DNA of 36,174 nt from Neisseriaceae bacterium (lineage in GTDB: Bacteria; Pseudomonadota; Gammaproteobacteria; Burkholderiales; UBA11063), in NCBI GenBank assembly GCA_947446595.1, contig CANFGS010000019.1, forward strand, positions 1-36,174. Reading direction: 5' to 3'. Shown piece after piece: positions 12,498-29,237 of the stretch. Position 1 is the first letter of the stretch, and every line of letters begins with the position of its first letter. The notes under the pieces were generated by a model, which saw nothing but the letters and a program-made list of their open reading frames with translations, searched no databases and had not been told where the DNA came from. Position numbers and translations under genes: made by a program.

Positions 12498-14126
12498 TTA
12501 TTTCAAACTCATCCATTTAGATTGCACATGATACAAACTGTTAGTATTTGAGTCAAATCCAGTAACATATGGTTTAACCAAAACTTGAATAGTGTATTGA
12601 AATAATGGAATAACCGCATAATCATTTAAAGGTATTCTTAGAGCTTCACGATAAAAATCCACTTTATGATCTTGATTGGTATCAGCTTTTGCTTGTTCTA
12701 TGAGTTTATCATACTTTGAATTGCAGTAATGAGAATTATTTTGATCATTCTTGCATTCATATAAGTTAGTATAGCTAGTCACTGAATTATAATCAGCTAT
12801 CCAGCCATCACGAGCAATTTGGTAGCCACCCTTATGTCTAGTTTGAATAAAAGTTTTCCACTCTTGGTTTTGGAGATTAACATTTACTCCCAAAACCGAT
12901 TTCCACATCGCAGCAACCGCTAGAGCTGTCTTTTTATGTAAATCGTTAGTGTTGTAGCTAATAGAAACTGTATATGGATTAGTCGCACTATATCCTGCCT
13001 CAGCGTATAATTTTTTAGCCTCAGCAATTTGTTTGTCACGTGACCAAGATCCCCATTCATAATCAAGCCCCTTATATTTTCCACCTTCAACAGTATCTGT
13101 AGCCGTTGAATACAATGGAACTTGCCCCATCTTTAGAACATCATTAGTTAAAACCTTACGATCAATCGCCATACTAAGAGCTTGACGAAGCTTAGCATTT
13201 TTAGCTAATTCTGGATTGTTCCAGCTAAAATCATAATAATATATGGCTTCTTGTCTAAACAAATGTAACTCTTCAGGATAATCTTTTCTAAGTTGACTAA
13301 ACTGATCAGCTGGTACAGATTGGAACGTCATATCTAGCCCACCTGAACGATATGCTGGAATACTCGCATTTTTATCATCATAAGGTAGGTATTTAACTTC
13401 TTTGATACTGACATTTGCTGCATCCCAAAAATTAGGATTTTTTTCAGCTAAAATATATCCATTTACAACGTGCTCTTTTAGTTTATAAGCACCTGAAGTT
13501 ATCATATTTTGCGGTTTTGTCCAAGCACTACCAAATTTCTCAATATTTTTTTGGGATACAACCATGGTATTAGGCATGGCAATTTCATTTAGAAATGCAT
13601 CGTCTGGTTGATTTAGTTTTGCAACCAAAGTAAGGCTATCTGGGGCATACACCCCAAGATTATCAGGGTTTTGTTTACCATCCATAATCTCACGTGCATT
13701 TACTAACCTAGACAATAAGAAATTGTAGGGAGATGCTACTTTAGGGTCAATTAAGCGTCTCCAGCTATACACAAAATTATTTGCCGTAATAGGGCTACCA
13801 TCAGAAAATTTCAAATTTGGACGTAAATGAAATGTATAAGTTTTAGCATCAGGGCTAATATCCCAAGATGATGCCATCCCCGGAATTATTTTATTACTTT
13901 GATCAAAATCAACTAAACCTGCAAATAAATCATACATTATACGAGTAGAAGAATTATCCTCAGCTAAAGTTGGATCTAAACTTGGCGCTTCAGATCCAAC
14001 ATCAATACGAAATAAATCCTTAGGATGCGAGCCATTGCTAACTGATTTGGAACTTTTGGAACATCCACTTATTGTAATCATACCCAAAAAACCAAGAAAT
14101 AAAATTCTAATTAACTTAATTCGCAT
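12498..14126 (-). CDS. oppA: Oligopeptide-binding lipoprotein OppA
   Basis: A 542-residue SBP_bac_5 lipoprotein that captures peptides for OppBCDF. The signal peptide ends in the lipobox ISGC with Cys22. The mature protein has EAPSLDPTLAEDN, DLFAGLVDFDQ, the WDIS-x-D-x-KTYTFHLRPNLKFSDG block and LRQALSMAIDRKVL. It heads the operon, with an extended -10 promoter about 40 bp upstream and AAGG before the ATG. In Gram-negatives OppA is usually soluble in the periplasm, so lipid anchoring is a mild oddity shared by both copies here. The orphan paralogue at 881-2485 is its closest relative in the window. Confidence 0.95.
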   Translation of the reverse strand: MRIKLIRILFLGFLGMITISGCSKSSKSVSNGSHPKDLFRIDVGSEAPSLDPTLAEDNSSTRIMYDLFAGLVDFDQSNKIIPGMASSWDISPDAKTYTFHLRPNLKFSDGSPITANNFVYSWRRLIDPKVASPYNFLLSRLVNAREIMDGKQNPDNLGVYAPDSLTLVAKLNQPDDAFLNEIAMPNTMVVSQKNIEKFGSAWTKPQNMITSGAYKLKEHVVNGYILAEKNPNFWDAANVSIKEVKYLPYDDKNASIPAYRSGGLDMTFQSVPADQFSQLRKDYPEELHLFRQEAIYYYDFSWNNPELAKNAKLRQALSMAIDRKVLTNDVLKMGQVPLYSTATDTVEGGKYKGLDYEWGSWSRDKQIAEAKKLYAEAGYSATNPYTVSISYNTNDLHKKTALAVAAMWKSVLGVNVNLQNQEWKTFIQTRHKGGYQIARDGWIADYNSVTSYTNLYECKNDQNNSHYCNSKYDKLIEQAKADTNQDHKVDFYREALRIPLNDYAVIPLFQYTIQVLVKPYVTGFDSNTNSLYHVQSKWMSLK

Positions 14127-14166
14127 TTACTTATTACCTTATTTTTAAATTTTATAGTAAGTGATT

Positions 14167-14196
14167 AGTATAACAAACTTTTATGCAATTAGTCAT
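14167..14196 (-). promoter_or_regulatory. Candidate promoter of the opp operon
   Basis: On the minus strand ATGACT (14191-14196) is followed after 18 bp by TATACT (14167-14172), preceded by TGT to make an extended -10. It lies 40 bp upstream of the oppA ATG. Confidence 0.5.
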
Positions 14197-14270
14197 AATC
14201 AGAGTATTGCATCGCAATATAATGTTAAGAACTTTGAATTCAGAGAATTATTATAGTACGGCTTTGTGCT

Positions 14271-14279
14271 TGATATACT
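14271..14279 (+). promoter_or_regulatory. Candidate extended -10 for a small plus-strand transcript
   Basis: TGATATACT is an extended -10, identical to the one at 183-191. There is no convincing -35. It precedes a 34-codon ORF and a strong terminator with no annotated plus-strand gene between. Confidence 0.3.
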
Positions 14280-14343
14280 TTAATTTTTATGACTGGCTAT
14301 TAATGCTCGTTGATAATCTTTATAAATTAGGGTTGATACTGCT

Positions 14344-14448
14344 ATGAAAGCTGGTAATATAAACAAAATAGCTACCGTTGAATACAGTAACTATAGTATT
14401 TTATCTGGTTTATATAGCAAATATTGTACTATAACTTACGGCGAGTAA
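14344..14448 (+). CDS. Possible 34-residue small protein
   Basis: ATG 14344 to TAA 14446-14448 encodes a neutral 34-residue peptide starting MKAGNINKIATVEYS. It has no signal peptide, membrane helix or recognisable motif. A weak AGGG lies about 14 nt upstream, so translation is doubtful. Interest comes from its place between an extended -10 (14271-14279) and an intrinsic terminator that begins 8 nt after the stop. The region 14127-14483 otherwise holds only the opp promoter. It could equally be a non-coding RNA of about 190 nt or a decayed gene end. Confidence 0.25.
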   Translation: MKAGNINKIATVEYSNYSILSGLYSKYCTITYGE

Positions 14449-14455
14449 GAAATTA

Positions 14456-14479
14456 GGAGCAAGGCAGCTTGCTCCTTTT
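14456..14479. terminator. Intrinsic terminator hairpin, stronger on plus strand
   Basis: GGAGCAAG (14456-14463), loop GCAG, and CTTGCTCC (14468-14475) form a perfect 8-bp stem followed on the plus strand by TTTTC. On the minus strand it sits 8 nt after the alcohol dehydrogenase stop, followed by TAATTTCTT, so it can also end that operon. Confidence 0.7.
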
Positions 14480-14483
14480 CTAC

Positions 14484-15530
14484 CTATTTTAGGCTTGCTG
14501 TATCAATCACAAAACGATACTTAACATCACTTTTTATCATTCGTTCATACGCTGTATTGATATCTTTGATATCAATAACTTCAACATCGGATACTATATT
14601 ATGTTTGCCACAAAAATCTAGCATCTCTTGAGTTTCCTTAATACCACCAATTAGTGAACCAGATATTCGCTTACGCCCACCAATAAGACCTAATGTATTT
14701 ATAGCAGGTTCCAGGTCTCCAATTACACCAACGATAACCATTGTTGCATCAAGCTTTAATAAAGATAAATATGGATTAACATCATGTGCTACTGGAATAG
14801 TATTTAATAAGAAATCAAATTTACCAGCGTATTTTGCCATTTGTTCTTTATCAGTTGAAATCAGAACCTCATCAGCACCAAGAGCCATAGCATCTTTAGC
14901 CTTACTCTTTGAAGTCGTAATCATAAATACATGCGCACCTAGTGCATGAGCAAATTTAATTCCCATATGCCCAAGCCCACCAAGACCAATTACTCCAACT
15001 ACATCCCCCTTCTTAACACCCCAAGCTCTAAGCGGTGACCAAGTAGTAATACCAGCACAAAGAAGTGGTGCTACAGCTTTAATATCAAGGTTTTCTGGTA
15101 CATTTACAACAAAGTTCTCATCAACTACAATTCCTTGTGAATAGCCCCCATAAGTTACTCCACCGTGTTTCTTGTCAGGAGAACCATAAGTCCAAGTAGC
15201 ACCTTGGCAAAACTGTTCTAAATCAATTTTGCAACTATGACAAGTCTGACATGAGTCAACCAAACAACCTACACCTACTAAATCACCAACCTTATGTTTG
15301 GTAACACTAGAACCAACACTCACAACACGTCCCACAATCTCATGCCCTGGAACCATAGGATAAATAGATGGCCCCCAGTCACTGCGAACTTGATGAATAT
15401 CACTATGGCAAACACCTGCGTATTTGATTTCAATTTGGACATCATTAGCTCCCACATCACGACGTTCAAATACAAAAGGTTTTAGATTATCAGTTGCCGA
15501 GTCTGCTGCATATGAATTTACTTTAAACAT
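14484..15530 (-). CDS. Zinc-dependent NAD(P) alcohol dehydrogenase (YahK/CAD type)
   Basis: A 348-residue medium-chain dehydrogenase/reductase that oxidises alcohols or reduces aldehydes in the cytoplasm. Catalytic-zinc ligands are Cys41 (AGVCHSD), His63 (GHE) and Cys158. Structural zinc ligands are Cys94, Cys97, Cys100 and Cys108. The nucleotide-binding GLGGLG (182-187) is followed by HMGIKFAHALGA. The pattern matches the cinnamyl-alcohol-dehydrogenase-like YahK group, which usually prefers NADPH and a broad range of aldehydes. AGGAG lies 7 nt before ATG, and the gene starts 9 nt after nadE, so it is cotranscribed. A terminator follows. Confidence 0.9.
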   Translation of the reverse strand: MFKVNSYAADSATDNLKPFVFERRDVGANDVQIEIKYAGVCHSDIHQVRSDWGPSIYPMVPGHEIVGRVVSVGSSVTKHKVGDLVGVGCLVDSCQTCHSCKIDLEQFCQGATWTYGSPDKKHGGVTYGGYSQGIVVDENFVVNVPENLDIKAVAPLLCAGITTWSPLRAWGVKKGDVVGVIGLGGLGHMGIKFAHALGAHVFMITTSKSKAKDAMALGADEVLISTDKEQMAKYAGKFDFLLNTIPVAHDVNPYLSLLKLDATMVIVGVIGDLEPAINTLGLIGGRKRISGSLIGGIKETQEMLDFCGKHNIVSDVEVIDIKDINTAYERMIKSDVKYRFVIDTASLK

Positions 15531-15539
15531 AATGTTCTC

Positions 15540-17129
15540 CTAAAATTTAAATTTGTTTGTTATTGGATAGCGCCAATCTTTTGCGTATGCTTTATTACTT
15601 ATCTTAGGACCAATTGCAGCTTGACGCCTCTTATATTCATTGGTCTTTAATAAATGCGCTACTTTATTAACTGTAGCTTCGTCAAACCCAGATTTTATTA
15701 TATCGCTACTTGCCTCACTACATTCAACCATTTTATGAATTATCGCATCTAGTATTTCATAATCTGGTAACGAGTCTTGATCTGTTTGATTATCACGGAG
15801 TTCTGCTGAGGGCGCTCTTGTAATAATTCTCTTTGGAATAATCTCTGAAATAGAATTTCGATAGTTACTTAAACGATATACATCAGTCTTAAGAATATCT
15901 TTTAGTACCGCATAACCACCTGCCATATCACCGTACAACGTTGCATACCCAGTAGTCATTTCTGATTTATTGCCCGTAGTTAGTACCAAAAATCCTAATT
16001 TATTAGAAACAGCCATTAGTAATGTCCCACGAATTCGAGCTTGTAAATTTTCCTCTGTCGTATCAGAGTCGTGACCACTAAAAATACCTTGAAGTGAATT
16101 TTGGAACTGTTCAAAAATTGGACTAATCACTATTTCTTCATAGCGTACTTGGAGTCTATTAACCATATCTCTAGAGTCAGAAATACTAATATCTGCTGTA
16201 TACTTAGATGGCATCATTATTGCCATTACCCTGTCATGCCCCAAAGCATCAACAGCTATTGCCAAAGTCAGTGCTGAGTCAATACCCCCTGATAAACCAA
16301 GAACTATACCCTTAAAGCCATTTTTGTCAATATAATCTCTAACCCCAACCACTAAAGCCTGATAGATACTTTCAATATCATTAGGATAAGTCGCAATTTC
16401 ATTTGAATATAAGCTACCATTATTATGCTCAAGATAAGATAGTTTTTCTTCAAATACTGGTAACTGCATTGCTATCGCACCATCAGGATTTATCGCAAAA
16501 GATGCGCCATCAAAAACAAGCTCATCCTGAGCTCCATATTGATTAACATATATAAGTGGAGCACCAATATCAGCTACTCTTTGCGCTCCTAAACTCAATC
16601 GTTTTTGATGTTTGTTTCGCTCGAAGGGAGATGCGTTTAATACACAAAGTAAATCCACATCTTTATATAATAAAGACGGATTTTTATGCCACATATCCTC
16701 ACAAACAATCACTCCAACTTTGGTATTTTTAATTTGTAAAATCAGCGATTTAGTTCCTGCAGTAAAGTAGCGTTTCTCATCAAAGACACCATAGTTAGGC
16801 AGACATTGTTTATCATAACGCCCTATGATTTCACCATCAGATATTGCAAATACACTATTATAAATTAACCCATTTTCAGTATAAGGACAACCAATTAGCA
16901 TTGTTATACCATGAATACTTTTGAAACACTCAAGCATTTTAAAACACTCAGTATAAAAGTTATTTCTATAAAGTAAGTCTTCAGGTGGATAACCACAGAT
17001 ACTGAGTTCGGATGTGATAAACAAATCTGAGCCATTAACTTTGGCGGTATGAATTGCAGACATAAGCCTATCAGTGTTGGTGGATAATCCACCAACTATG
17101 GGATTAAACTGATAGACTGCGATTTTAAT
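15540..17129 (-). CDS. nadE: Glutamine-dependent NAD+ synthetase, probable ATT start
   Basis: This enzyme makes NAD+ from deamido-NAD+ using glutamine. The N-terminal nitrilase-type glutaminase has Glu41 (TSELSICGYPPED), Lys107 (YDKQCLPNYG) and Cys143 (VIVCEDMWH). The C-terminal synthetase has the PP-loop LSGGIDSA (about 279-286). The first ATG (17061-17063) would drop the first beta strand, but the frame continues upstream through KIAVYQFNPIVGG, a normal NadE N-terminus. No ATG, GTG or TTG occurs between that ATG and the in-frame stop at 17160-17162, and the only plausible initiators are the two ATT codons at 17127-17132. I chose 17129 (529 residues). The Shine-Dalgarno is weak. The TPR gene ends 14 bp upstream, suggesting coupling. 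Confidence 0.85.
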   Translation of the reverse strand: MKIAVYQFNPIVGGLSTNTDRLMSAIHTAKVNGSDLFITSELSICGYPPEDLLYRNNFYTECFKMLECFKSIHGITMLIGCPYTENGLIYNSVFAISDGEIIGRYDKQCLPNYGVFDEKRYFTAGTKSLILQIKNTKVGVIVCEDMWHKNPSLLYKDVDLLCVLNASPFERNKHQKRLSLGAQRVADIGAPLIYVNQYGAQDELVFDGASFAINPDGAIAMQLPVFEEKLSYLEHNNGSLYSNEIATYPNDIESIYQALVVGVRDYIDKNGFKGIVLGLSGGIDSALTLAIAVDALGHDRVMAIMMPSKYTADISISDSRDMVNRLQVRYEEIVISPIFEQFQNSLQGIFSGHDSDTTEENLQARIRGTLLMAVSNKLGFLVLTTGNKSEMTTGYATLYGDMAGGYAVLKDILKTDVYRLSNYRNSISEIIPKRIITRAPSAELRDNQTDQDSLPDYEILDAIIHKMVECSEASSDIIKSGFDEATVNKVAHLLKTNEYKRRQAAIGPKISNKAYAKDWRYPITNKFKF

Positions 17130-17143
17130 AATATAATTTCTTT

Positions 17144-17935
17144 TTAGGAGTGTGCTTTTTTAAGGCAAACATTATCTTCTTTAGTAAATCTCATTTCTTC
17201 ATATTTACCATCAGTTTCAGGTAGATCCTGCGCTTTTTTACAAGCTGCGTTAGCACTTTCATATTTACCCGCAGCTATATAATATTGCCCTAAAAATACC
17301 CAGTTATTTCTGTATTTTGGAGCAGCATCAGCCGCACCTTTTATAAGAGCTTCCGCTTTTTTCATATCACCGCCAAACATTCCTGGTAACTCCTGGTAAT
17401 AACGCCCAAGAATACGCGAGCTTGCATAACCTTCATATGACGGATCAATAGCTCGAGCTTTCTCAAGTGCTGCCATACCAGGTTTAGCACCTGAAGCTGC
17501 AGCGAATACCCCCTTAGCAAGACCATAGCTACCTAAGTCAACCGCATACCATAAATACCCTTCAACTGCTGTAGGTTTTAAAGTCTGAGCTTGTAAGCCT
17601 GCTTTTGCACCATAGTCAAACAAATCAACACCAGCAATAGTATCAACAAAACGTGATTGCCCAACCCCAAAATTACCAATAAAAGACACCAAACGTGCTG
17701 TTTTCCAAGATGTAGCATAATCTTTTGGCACTTCAGGTTTAGTAATTAAATAATCAGCAATTATTTTCTGATTATCCTCATTTTCACGATTTGCCCAGCA
17801 ACTATCAACCACTGCTTCAGTCAGTGGAGTTCCCGCTGCCAAGGTAAACCCAGCAGCTTTATCTTTAGCATAACCACTAAAAATTGAGCCAGCTAGTACA
17901 GCAGCTAAAAGCGTATTTTTATTAATAATGTTCAT
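17144..17935 (-). CDS. Exported TPR protein, TRAP-transporter TatT-like
   Basis: A 263-residue protein with a cleavable-type signal sequence (about residues 1-23, ending SGYA). The middle (GYLWYAVDLGSYGLAKG, then IDPSYEGYASSRILGRYYQELPGMFGGDMKKAEALI) matches the TatT/TAtT tetratricopeptide family of periplasmic proteins, including the characteristic LGRYY-x-LPG-x-xGGD turn. A last TPR-like helix pair is at about 203-232 and two Cys near the C-terminus (with one near 46) may form a disulfide. The ATG lies 14 nt inside the end of the RND pump gene, with AAGGAG 8 nt upstream, so its synthesis is coupled to the pump. TatT proteins are usually linked to TRAP transporters, none of which is here. 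Confidence 0.65.
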   Translation of the reverse strand: MNIINKNTLLAAVLAGSIFSGYAKDKAAGFTLAAGTPLTEAVVDSCWANRENEDNQKIIADYLITKPEVPKDYATSWKTARLVSFIGNFGVGQSRFVDTIAGVDLFDYGAKAGLQAQTLKPTAVEGYLWYAVDLGSYGLAKGVFAAASGAKPGMAALEKARAIDPSYEGYASSRILGRYYQELPGMFGGDMKKAEALIKGAADAAPKYRNNWVFLGQYYIAAGKYESANAACKKAQDLPETDGKYEEMRFTKEDNVCLKKAHS

Positions 17936-20900
17936 GATTTGACTCCTTCTTAGGCGATTCTTTTTTGGAAAAATTCATCACCGTAATAAAAAATAATGGT
18001 ACAAATAAGGTAGCAATACAAGTTGAACCTATCATACCCCCGATAATACCAAGACCTACTGAATGTTGTGAATTAGCTCCTGCTCCAGTTGCTGTAACAA
18101 GTGGTACAGCTCCCAAAATAAAAGCAATTGACGTCATAATAATCGGTCTAAACCTAATTCGTGCGGCATGAATTGCTGCCTCACGATATGTCATACCTTC
18201 ACCACGTACCCCATCAATTGCAAACTCAGTTATTAAGATCGCATTTTTGGCAGATAAGCCAATGAGGGTCAACATACTTACTTGGAAATAAATATCATTT
18301 GGTTTATTAAATATCAATAATGTAATTGCAGCACCAAGTAACGCAAATGGTAGTGCCATCATAATAGCTAAAGGTAATGCCCATAACTCATAAAGTGCAG
18401 CTAAAATTAAAAACACCATTATTATACCCAAACTAAAGGCAATAACTGCGGTATTACCAGCAATAGCCTGCTGGTAAGACGGGCCAAACCAACTAACTGT
18501 ATAAGTTTTACCAAGCACCTTAGGTACAGCATCACGAATTATATTCATAATCTCACCTGAGGTGTACCCCTTAGATGGGTTAACTACTATTTGACTTGCT
18601 AAGAAATCGTTAAGTCTAGTAACAACTTCAGCACTATTTCTATATTGTAGTGTTGCAACACTGCCTGCTGGGATTATCTTACCTACTGTGTTTTTGATAT
18701 ATGTAGTATTTAGCATTTCTGGAGTATTTCTAAACTTATAATCACCCTGTAAAATCACCCACCATAAGTCTTGCCACTTAGTGAAATAATTTATATAATA
18801 AGTTCCAAAAACCGATTGTAAAGTATTAAATACTTGAGCATAAGTCAAACCATAGAGATATACTTTTGCTGGATCAATTTTTACATCCATTTCTGGAGTG
18901 GCAATATTATAAAACTGTGCTGCCATAGCAACTTCTGGATAGTTTTTTTGTAGATATTGAGTTAGCTTTACCGAATCAGCATAAATTTGTTCAACTGTTA
19001 GTGGTAAATTTGCTTGAAGATAGAAAGTAACACCACCAGTAGTACTCATCCCACGAATTGGGGGCTGATTAAATGCAAAACCCGTAATATTTTTATTTGC
19101 AGCGACAATTTTATTAGTTGCTGCAATCATATCATCAACACCACTATCTTTAGCTGGGCGTTTGGTATAGTCATCTAAAATAATACTTAGAGTCGAAGTA
19201 TTGGTCTTAGTAGCACCATTATCAACAGTATCAATCCCACCTAAAATCGCAACACGATTAACTGCCGGTAATTTTAGTATTTGACGTGACACTGACTCTG
19301 CTTGTTGTAAATTATATGCCATAGAACCAGCATTATTGACATGCTGAGTATTATAATAATACCCCATATCTTCAAGAGGCACTAGAGCTGTTGGAATATG
19401 GATAAATGCAGCTATAACAGCTATTACTACGCCAAACCAGATTGAGAGTGCAATTTTGGAATTATCAATAACAAATGTTACCACTATCATGTATTGATTA
19501 AGAAGTTTTTCGAAATAGATATTAAATTTATCAAAGAATATTTGTAATAACGCCAACGGTTTGAATTTTGGCATAACTTTATCACTGCCATGTTTGGAAT
19601 TTTTTAGCATTAAAGCACAAAGAGTTGGAGTCAAAGTTAATGCTACTACACCCGATAGTAGAGTTGATACCGCAATTGTAACTGCAAACTGTTTCATGAG
19701 TACGCCACTAAAGCCACCTAAGAACGCAACTGGCACAAATACTGCATTTAATACTGCAACCACCGCAATTACTGGAGAAGCCACCTCTACCATACATTTA
19801 ATTGCTGCATCAACCGAATTTAGTCCTTCTTCCCGCATTAAACGTTCAACATTTTCTAGCACTACGATTGCATCATCAACAACAATACCAATAGCTAATA
19901 CCATCCCAAATAGTGTTAGGGTATTAATTGAAAATCCAAGAGCGTAAGTTCCGGCAAAAGTACCAATAATTGCTACAGGTATTGCAAGAACAGGGATAAT
20001 AGTACCTTTAAGGTTTTGCATAAATAACATCACAACCATGAATACCAGTATAAAGGCTATTAATAGCGTTTCAATCACAGCCTGAATTGATAAAAGCACA
20101 AAATCTGAAGAATCATAATGATAATAGTATTTTATCCCGGCAGGCAAATGCTTACTTATAGAGTCAAGAGCGGCATTAACATTATGTTTAACTTCAATTT
20201 GATTAGCACCTGGTACAAGATAAATGGCAATACCAACAGCATTATGTTTTTCCATCTTACCAGTTTCCAAGTTACGCGAGAATGGTTCAAAAAAAGTACT
20301 ATATGATTGTGCATCTAGTGATACTCGAGCTACATCCTTAAGCCTCACCACTTGAGCACTACTTTCAGTAGCTTTTAAAACAATATTTTGAAATTGTGAC
20401 TCGTCAGTCATATAGCCTGGAGAATTAATCATATAGTTATATTTTTGATCCAATCCAACCATTGGCTCCATAGCATTCATACCAATTGCCCATGGCCAAT
20501 TTTGGTCATTGATAGCATTTTTAATATCAGCAACACCAATACCATAATAAGACATTTTATTTGGGTCAAGCCAAGCACGCATAGCAAACTGACGTTGCCC
20601 TACAATGGTAATAACACCAATACCTGGAATTTGTAATAAAACTGGATAGATATAGCGTTGAACATAGTTACTAATATAGAGTAAATCAGGATTGCCATCT
20701 TCAGAATAAAATGGTATCACCAAAAATAGATCGGGATTTTTCATCCGCATTACAACACCTTGAGCTTGTACTTGAGTAGGTAATTGAGGTAATGCTGTAT
20801 TAATTCGGTTTAGAGCATCAGCTTCTACTGATTTTAAATCGGTTCCTACTTGGAAATAAACATTTAGGGATATTGAGCTACTACCATTAGCACTTGCTGA

Positions 20901-24375: not shown

Positions 24376-25911
24376 TTACTGTTGAAATGAGTGGAAGTTA
24401 TCACATTTATACAAATGTAATACCATCTCAGTACGCCCATGACGAGTAATCGGAACATCATCTACTTTTCGTAAATTAGAACAATAATTATGCGTATCTT
24501 CTAAAACCTTGTCAGTATTGTCACGTGTCACAAAAATTAGATCTTGACCAAGATAATCATTATCATTAAAATAATAACTATAATTACGCTGCTCTTCAAA
24601 TGAACGAACTGGTATCTTACCTTTTAGCGCCCAATCAACCTTACCAGAGATTAGCCAATGTGAAGCACCTACAAATAAATTCGGTTGATTTAATAATCCA
24701 TGCGTCTCAAAATAAGTTAGTAAATCAGTATAATCATATCCATCCATAGTTGGTTCAACTATTTGGTCTTTTGGCGTACCTGGGTTAGTTACTTCAGCTA
24801 ACTGCTTAGGGCCATAACTTTGCCAAAAACCAGTTTCTTCCTGCACACCAGCAAGAAATAAAATACCATAGGCAAATACGAAAGAAAAAACAATCCATTT
24901 AAGTGTACGACCTCTAGTTGGGCTATTTAGTCGTTTTTCAACCATAGCACCAAGTGGTACAAATAATATCATATAGCCTACTGATTGCCAGTGGAAATGA
25001 TACGATAAGTCAGCCCAAAGTGTTGAGGCTGTAAAAAACACTATCGGAAATAAAGCCATACAAAAGAAGAACCAGTATTTATTATCAGTTTTACCCAAGC
25101 GATATGAACGAACAAACTCAACTACTATAGGCACCCAAATCCAAGGCAATAACCATAAAGCCTGACCTAGAAAGCTTCTAAAAAACCAGTCAAAGTGTAA
25201 ATGAAAATTATCAGTAAACTCACGAGAGGATTGGAAACGAATAGATACCCAATCATGCTGATAATTCCATATAAAAATTGGTAAAAAGAATATCAAGCAT
25301 ATAACCCCAGCAAGATAAAACCCAGGATTTTTAAATACTCTACGTTCACGGGTAATAATATACAATAAAACACCTAAAGCAAAAAATACTACATGATATT
25401 TAGATAAGCCAGTTAATCCCATATCCACACCTAGTAGTATCCATAAGTACAACTCATTTTTACATGTTAGTGGTGCTTTTGGAAAAAACAACCTAACCAT
25501 TATATATAAACCAACTGACCAGAAGAATAAAAGTGGTGCATCAGGTTGAAACCAAATTCCATCAATTATATATAAAGCACTTAAATTAAAAATTAAAACA
25601 GTATAAAACCCAGCTTTTTCACTAAAAAACCATTTAGCAATTAAATATAGCATAAAGCTAGTACCTGAGAACAACATCACATCAGGTAATCTAAGCCCAA
25701 AAGTATTGGTACCAAAAATCTTAAGCGATACATGGCTTAACCAAAAAAACAAAGGTGGTTGGTCAACATAGCTAAGCGCAATGTCATGCGCTCCACGGAA
25801 GTAATACGACTCCCCCGTACCTAACCCAGTAGTTGCAGCAATAATAATCCGCACTAAAAAAAATGCTAAGATCAAGTAAATAGTATTTTTGGTTATATTA
25901 GATGTTTTAAT
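24376..25911 (-). CDS. GT39/ArnT-like membrane glycosyltransferase, probable ATT start
   Basis: A polytopic GT-C fold enzyme of the PMT_2/ArnT type using polyprenyl-phosphate sugars. The first periplasmic loop shows GTGESYYFRGAHDIALSYVD and PPLFFWLSH; the usual Asp-Glu pair reads Gly-Glu, so the candidate catalytic acid differs. About 10-11 helices precede a soluble C-terminal domain (about 345-511). The first conventional start, TTG at 25873-25875, has no ribosome site. Upstream in frame there is no ATG, GTG or TTG before a stop at 25927-25929, but an AGGGGAA site sits 6 nt before ATT 25909-25911, which I take as the start (511 residues). It follows the beta-barrel gene pair after 29 nt. Confidence 0.75.
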   Translation of the reverse strand: MKTSNITKNTIYLILAFFLVRIIIAATTGLGTGESYYFRGAHDIALSYVDQPPLFFWLSHVSLKIFGTNTFGLRLPDVMLFSGTSFMLYLIAKWFFSEKAGFYTVLIFNLSALYIIDGIWFQPDAPLLFFWSVGLYIMVRLFFPKAPLTCKNELYLWILLGVDMGLTGLSKYHVVFFALGVLLYIITRERRVFKNPGFYLAGVICLIFFLPIFIWNYQHDWVSIRFQSSREFTDNFHLHFDWFFRSFLGQALWLLPWIWVPIVVEFVRSYRLGKTDNKYWFFFCMALFPIVFFTASTLWADLSYHFHWQSVGYMILFVPLGAMVEKRLNSPTRGRTLKWIVFSFVFAYGILFLAGVQEETGFWQSYGPKQLAEVTNPGTPKDQIVEPTMDGYDYTDLLTYFETHGLLNQPNLFVGASHWLISGKVDWALKGKIPVRSFEEQRNYSYYFNDNDYLGQDLIFVTRDNTDKVLEDTHNYCSNLRKVDDVPITRHGRTEMVLHLYKCDNFHSFQQ

Positions 25912-25940
25912 GATATATTCCCCTAATTATAAAAGAAAAA

Positions 25941-28613: not shown

Positions 28614-29237
28614 TTAGTCTTTAATAGATTTTTTTATATACTTGTAAATTAAAAAACCCACCAAAGCTATTATAATTGCGCCCAAAATAAAGTGTTCACA
28701 TTTTCTAACATATCTAATAACATCACCAATATCATAAGCAAAAAAATACCCTAGATATACCAATGCCGGAACACTTATTAATGCAGCACTTCCATCCATA
28801 ATTACAAATTTTAATAATGATACTCTATGGCTGATACCAGAAATAATAAATATTGGCGCCCGAAGTACAGGTAGAAATCTTGCTACAAACAATATCTTAT
28901 CACCATGTTTATGAGTTTTTTCCTGAATTTTGGCATAATTTTCTGGAGTAATAATATTTTTCAATCCTGGTAATCTAGTAACCCTTGGCCCCAAATACCT
29001 ACCCAAACTAAATATTATGCCATCACCTATAAGAACACCCAACAAGGAAACAACTATCATATAATTAACATTGACTGCATAAGGCGTTCCAACTGACAAT
29101 CCACAAATAACACCACCTGCAACAATAGCGATATCCTCTGGTATTGGAATTCCTAAACCGCAGGCGATAAGAACACAAAATACCGCAATATAGTCATATT
29201 GTGCAAAAATACTAATTAAATGTGTCAATACAACCAC
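28614..29237 (-). CDS. DedA-family inner-membrane protein
   Basis: A 207-residue polytopic protein with the DedA/SNARE-associated pattern: CGLGIPIPEDIAIVAGG (about residues 25-41) with its buried acidic residue, GDGIIFSLGRYLG (about 71-83), and FVARFLPVLRAPIFIISG (about 116-133) with the conserved Arg residues. DedA proteins are thought to flip undecaprenyl-phosphate or phospholipids and support envelope homeostasis. The start is GTG, 9 nt after glmM, so expression is coupled to peptidoglycan precursor synthesis. Confidence 0.88.
   Translation of the reverse strand: MVVLTHLISIFAQYDYIAVFCVLIACGLGIPIPEDIAIVAGGVICGLSVGTPYAVNVNYMIVVSLLGVLIGDGIIFSLGRYLGPRVTRLPGLKNIITPENYAKIQEKTHKHGDKILFVARFLPVLRAPIFIISGISHRVSLLKFVIMDGSAALISVPALVYLGYFFAYDIGDVIRYVRKCEHFILGAIIIALVGFLIYKYIKKSIKD

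Follow-up and report, generated by a model that had tools for sequence, protein, structure and literature searches.

The window analysed here, a stretch of 36,174 nucleotides, is contig 19 of a draft genome of 1.74 Mb. Its nadE region comprises the features listed below, in which G001 and G010 denote the two species nearest by NadE protein identity (91% and 88%, respectively).

15540..17129, reverse strand: nadE, predicted to encode glutamine-dependent NAD+ synthetase (529 codons plus stop), as judged from frame, profile matches and structural model
17127..17129, reverse strand: ATT codon, most likely the nadE start; identical in G001 and G010 and directly 5' of the conserved K-I-A
17130..17132, reverse strand: second Ile codon, a candidate alternative start; ATT in the window and G001, ATC in G010
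17061..17063, reverse strand: ATG, the first canonical start in the NadE frame (codon 23); ATT in G010, and within a structured stretch
17160..17162, reverse strand: upstream in-frame stop TAA
17130..17143, reverse strand: A+T-rich spacer of 14 nt from the stop of the upstream gene to ATT 17129, with no Shine-Dalgarno sequence (-0.9 kcal/mol) and little predicted local structure
17144..17935, reverse strand: upstream gene for a TAtT/TPR-like protein, with matches slightly under the Pfam cut-offs; a possible source of re-initiating ribosomes

From TAA 17162-17160 to the first canonical start the NadE frame reads KSTLLKRNYIIKIAVYQFNPIVGGLSTNTDRL, with no ATG, GTG or TTG before ATG 17063-17061, and 5' of this ATG it encodes IIKIAVYQFNPIVGGLSTNTDRL. 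The second ATT of the pair ATT ATT (17132-17127) directly precedes the lysine of K-I-A-V. The original prediction, which had placed the stop, the ATT pair and the ATG at these positions and had seen no canonical codon between stop and ATG, was correct on both counts. A short ORF in the third frame, MFALKKHTPKKKLYY (window 17125-17172, reverse strand), begins with an ATG 43 nt 5' of the nadE ATT, and its stop shares one base with that codon (ATTAA); the stop of its G010 counterpart, MRALKKHIPKKK, begins 7 nt before the ATT. This arrangement is possibly a coupling device, or due to chance.

The protein started at ATT contains the glutaminase and synthetase domains expected of NadE, PF00795 (CN_hydrolase, 96.4 bits) and PF02540 (NAD_synthase, 244.6 bits), and the NCBIfam model NF010588 matches its residues 1–528 with 743 bits against a cut-off of 479. 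Position 1 of the Pfam CN_hydrolase profile falls on residue 2, which bears out the claim that a normal NadE N-terminus is encoded upstream of the first ATG, and a complete N-terminus directly before K-I-A is obtained only with a start at the Ile codons. By its sequence matches, the window protein is an ordinary glutamine-dependent NAD+ synthetase. In an AlphaFold2 model built with 17 sequences (mean pLDDT 84.3), residues 2–7 form a strand and residues 15–31 a helix.

ATG 17063-17061 is the first canonical start in frame, and translation from it would yield a NadE shortened by 22 residues and devoid of KIAVYQFNPIVGG, the upstream frame being a relic. According to the structural model such a protein would lack the strand 2–7, which the original prediction had likewise seen removed, as well as part of the helix 15–31 and the first ~21 residues of the Pfam domain. 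The codons upstream of the ATG moreover look constrained as protein: for codons 2–22 pN/pS is 0.10, 0.10 and 0 in the three species pairs, small numbers that rest on three synonymous and 1, 1 and 0 non-synonymous differences per pair, compared with 0.13–0.16 for codons 24–530, and we regard codons 2–22 as behaving like coding sequence. In G010 the ATG is replaced by ATT, codons 52 (TTG) and 65 (ATG) being the next canonical ones, both downstream of the invariant Glu41. Finally, Shine-Dalgarno pairing at the ATG is weak (-2.4 kcal/mol), and a 60-nt span at this site is structured (ensemble energy -15.3 kcal/mol). A start that is not conserved, lies in structure and cuts the fold was rejected as quite improbable. 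A pseudogene was rejected in view of the full-length frame, the low pN/pS in three species and the single NadE match in the window's genome.

The proposed check whether relatives keep the ATT was positive in both G001 and G010, neither of which has ATG at this site. The ATT before AAA is identical in all three members of the clade, and the codon preceding it is ATT in the window and in G001 and ATC in G010. Because the G001 contig begins 6 nt upstream of the Ile codon pair, and a search for a further contig covering the stretch upstream of nadE found none, the full stretch free of canonical starts is visible only in the window and G010; G001 was checked for canonical codons in the two codons that it holds before the pair. 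Draft assemblies (those of G001 and G010 are 58% and 89% complete) and the single base that separates ATT from ATG could point to a sequencing or assembly error for ATG. However, the identical ATT stands in separate assemblies of three species, whose proteins differ from that of the window by 9% and 12%. Since the two nearest species carry the identical ATT before AAA, an error is so very unlikely as to be nearly negligible. In a tree of 18 NadE sequences the window, G001 and G010 form one clade (support 100/100), and the trait changed once; several deeper forks are weak, and the state before loss of the canonical start is therefore poorly placed.

In-frame canonical codons are present in all 13 other members of the genus for which a NadE N-terminus was obtained. 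One of these members, G006, reads ATG ATT AAA, its ATG aligning with the first Ile codon (17132-17130). NadE was matched with an E value of 1e-30 or lower in 17 of the 23 genomes of the genus searched. The six without one at this threshold (G002, G007, G011, G012, G018 and G020), among them G007 with 93% completeness, may lack the glutamine-dependent enzyme, or the gene fell in gaps. G021 carries downstream of nadE a second copy of only the last ~37 NadE residues (L005:154-264, reverse strand; about G021:C232:9793-9906), a partial duplication. A search of the collection of named genomes, which may omit records near the window, yielded no close relative (best identity 54%), and a search of a plasmid collection gave no match.

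A wider survey covered 111 nadE loci pooled from two collections with duplicates retained (112 were given; L094, with no N-terminal match, was left out). By a lenient test, 108 of them have at least one in-frame canonical codon between the upstream stop, or the end of the locus, and the fourth codon after the one aligned with the window's ATT; the three that have none are the window and its two closest relatives. The codon aligned with ATT 17129-17127 is ATG in 30 loci, TTG in nine and GTG in one; in the remaining loci, these three excepted, an in-frame canonical codon lies further upstream or no more than four codons downstream. No report of nadE or a NAD synthetase starting with ATT or AUU was found in the open-access literature searched.

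The situation of nadE is also uncommon within the genome. A screen of 276 kb (the window and 12 other 20-kb stretches) gave 212 non-overlapping ORFs of at least 120 codons, of which 17 are open for 12 or more codons ahead of their first canonical start. A Pfam scan of all 17, one of which has no Pfam hit, and of two further ORFs with shorter leads found only nadE with a domain reaching upstream of the first canonical start; the test is partial and insensitive, as it misses genes whose domain starts far from the N-terminus. infC, which lies outside the screened 276 kb, would be caught by such a screen, because its ATA is 19 codons upstream of the first canonical codon and the IF3_N match begins 8 codons after the ATA. 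Over its length, the genome's own IF3 aligns with the solved IF3 8jsg_A (E 5.4e-56), and discrimination against near-cognate starts is therefore presumably intact. A general loss of start-codon discipline was rejected, given that only nadE stood out in this partial and insensitive 276-kb screen and that IF3 looks ordinary. A glycosyltransferase-like ORF of the PMT family (window 24376-25926, reverse strand) has as its first canonical start a TTG 17 codons after the upstream stop.

The near-cognate starts described in the literature consulted usually, if not by strict definition, have a strong Shine-Dalgarno sequence that compensates for the weak codon. Such a sequence is absent at nadE, where the predicted pairing at the ATT amounts to -0.9 kcal/mol versus -7.7 kcal/mol for infC of the same genome, as computed with assumed anti-Shine-Dalgarno letters, not with those of this genome's 16S rRNA. 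Pairing is weaker still in three of 26 window genes, all of which start with ATG, and in three of ten ATG-started nadE genes of the genus (10 of the 13 mentioned above, with G009, G016 and G019 omitted and the starts chosen by us). Poor Shine-Dalgarno pairing is thus common for nadE in this genus.

The region from -30 to +30 around the ATT, at -0.87 kcal/mol, is the most open among the same 26 window genes (the next has -3.35 kcal/mol), a comparison that omits two likely genes, one with a TTG start (24376-25875) and one with GTG (28614-29237), as well as any ORF lying antisense to a longer gene. The corresponding region of G010 has an ensemble energy of -0.67 kcal/mol, and the ten ATG-started nadE genes range from -5.0 to -9.0 kcal/mol. 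Against dinucleotide shuffles, a 66-nt span at the nadE start lies 1.2 standard deviations above the mean, and spans of 106–111 nt from the window and G010 fold like the shuffles (z of 1.13 and -0.39). The open structure is no strong signal and should not be overrated. A known RNA family was considered and rejected, no Rfam match being obtained at 13000-19000 at E up to 1, and a promoter scan returned 5 sites versus 2.6 expected, an uninformative excess.

The TAtT/TPR-like gene ends 14 nt before the nadE ATT. It is also located directly 5' of nadE in G003, G004, G008 and G014, and in G006 a gap of ~570 nt separates the two genes; it was not found in the fetched stretches of eight other NadE loci of the genus (G001, with its cut contig, apart). 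Based on this short distance and the recurrence of the gene pair in relatives, re-initiation at nadE is possible. In E. coli, re-initiation that proceeds without a Shine-Dalgarno sequence is inefficient and lowered by excess IF3 (PMC2268962, in excerpt), and raising IF3 reduced fMet re-initiation at AUU in vitro (PMC10158994, in excerpt), an observation that fits but was not made on nadE.

A fusion protein might also arise if ribosomes or transcripts slip from the upstream gene into the NadE frame at an AAAAAAG run near 17156-17161. The run is kept in G010, where, as in the window, the NadE frame is open from there to the ATT. Yet only about 14 codons are open, and A AAA AAG, the classical frameshift heptamer, is out of phase with the upstream reading frame. 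Judged from its N-terminus, the upstream protein looks exported, unlike NadE, which works in the cytoplasm. In the four relatives that have the same gene pair, nadE has its own ATG. With the heptamer out of frame and these ATG starts in relatives, a fusion with the upstream gene was rejected as highly improbable.

Taken together, we consider it likely, with a probability of roughly four in five, that this clade starts nadE translation at a near-cognate Ile codon, by weak but sufficient initiation. Near-cognate initiation at ATT, as originally proposed, is well supported by comparison, in that the relatives have no ATG at the site and the downstream ATG is not conserved. Within the Ile codon pair AUU 17129-17127 is most likely the start; ATT 17132-17130, which is ATC in one relative, may serve instead. 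The initiator tRNA would read AUU 17129-17127 as methionine to give a normal NadE of 529 residues. The canonical start would have been lost once, probably before the three species split. Lacking a Shine-Dalgarno sequence, initiation would be favoured by the locally open A+T-rich start region and possibly helped by ribosomes that terminate on the upstream gene, whose stop is 14 nt from the ATT.

A site with a poor codon and no Shine-Dalgarno sequence is expected to be a very weak start; it follows that the cell makes do with very little NadE or that the site receives help of another kind. The ATT may be used but neutral, the product of start-codon decay in a lineage with little need for NadE, and would then have no part in regulation. 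Such decay is compatible with near-cognate initiation, differing only about its meaning, and we consider it an even bet. It is in keeping with the lack of a Shine-Dalgarno sequence, with the absence of an Rfam family at 13000-19000 and with the poor pairing common among nadE genes of the genus. Against it speak the rarity of the switch, as only one of 61,358 ancestral AUG starts changed to AUU in a published reconstruction (PMC5622118, in excerpt), and the retention of ATT over 0.34–0.43 differences per synonymous site although one base would revert it.

The original prediction had further suggested IF3-dependent control of nadE, an idea made plausible by the AUA start of infC in the same genome. 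Non-canonical starts are opposed by IF3, and infC fidelity alleles reportedly raise expression from them 3- to 15-fold (PMC5472188, in excerpt). IF3 likewise acts against re-initiation that lacks a Shine-Dalgarno sequence; if both effects apply to nadE, we infer that the gene would be doubly sensitive to IF3. Decay in a gene that needs little product explains the sequence about as well as this double sensitivity. It is rather doubtful that the AUU start throttles NadE deliberately, works only via the open leader and upstream re-initiation, two steps against which IF3 acts, and makes NAD synthesis follow IF3 and the supply of ribosomes. If true, this would be a kind of native AUU start that dispenses with a Shine-Dalgarno sequence and serves a metabolic enzyme the cell needs.

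The literature consulted describes only a small number of native bacterial genes whose near-cognate starts are established, and points out that gene callers, which assume ATG, GTG or TTG, leave others hidden. To infC, pcnB, sigR and cvfC1 nadE would be a predicted addition, a case well supported by comparison alone and on a central metabolic enzyme.

The start of infC is ATT in E. coli, ATC in Streptomyces (PMC5472188, in excerpt) and AUA in S. aureus (PMC13009471, in excerpt). In the genus, 21 of 24 IF3_N loci (among L112-L134; three partial ones were left out) were read, and infC starts with ATA in 17 and ATT in two (G005, G020), the other two being divergent copies; most starts stand behind an AGGAG-type site. 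In G000 and G010 the ATA follows AGGAG, with a stop three codons upstream. One of the loci read is L128:1207-1734 (reverse strand), and G012 and G020 each hold a divergent second IF3_N copy. Like nadE, infC has a near-cognate start conserved between species; it differs in its AGGAG Shine-Dalgarno sequence (-7.7 kcal/mol) and its known feedback logic, nadE having no demonstrated one. The AUU start of E. coli pcnB, an enzyme gene as is nadE, reportedly limits its expression, to go by the title of Binns and Masters 2002, cited in PMC13009471. The enzyme is unrelated to NadE, and all 16 pcnB-like loci of the genus examined (30 were fetched) have an in-frame ATG ahead of the conserved domain; pcnB is therefore no parallel here. 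The likening of nadE to infC and pcnB thus held for infC, albeit with ATA in most cases and an AGGAG-type site, and failed for pcnB.

The GTC start of Streptomyces sigR, which is repressed by IF3, is likewise non-canonical, conserved in a lineage and missed by annotation, but it has a strong AGGAGGTG site and experimental proof (PMC5472188, in excerpt), whereas the nadE start has no such site and is predicted from sequence. Conserved near-cognate starts also occur in cvfC1 (AUU) and ccpN (AUA) of S. aureus, which differ from nadE in extended Shine-Dalgarno pairing and proof by ribosome profiling. All AUU and AUA starts described for S. aureus have such extended motifs, and they reach about 10% of the AUG level, one of them as much as 30% in rich medium (PMC13009471, in excerpt). 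As the nadE site lacks the strong ribosome-binding sequence of the reported cases, what such starts need becomes testable.
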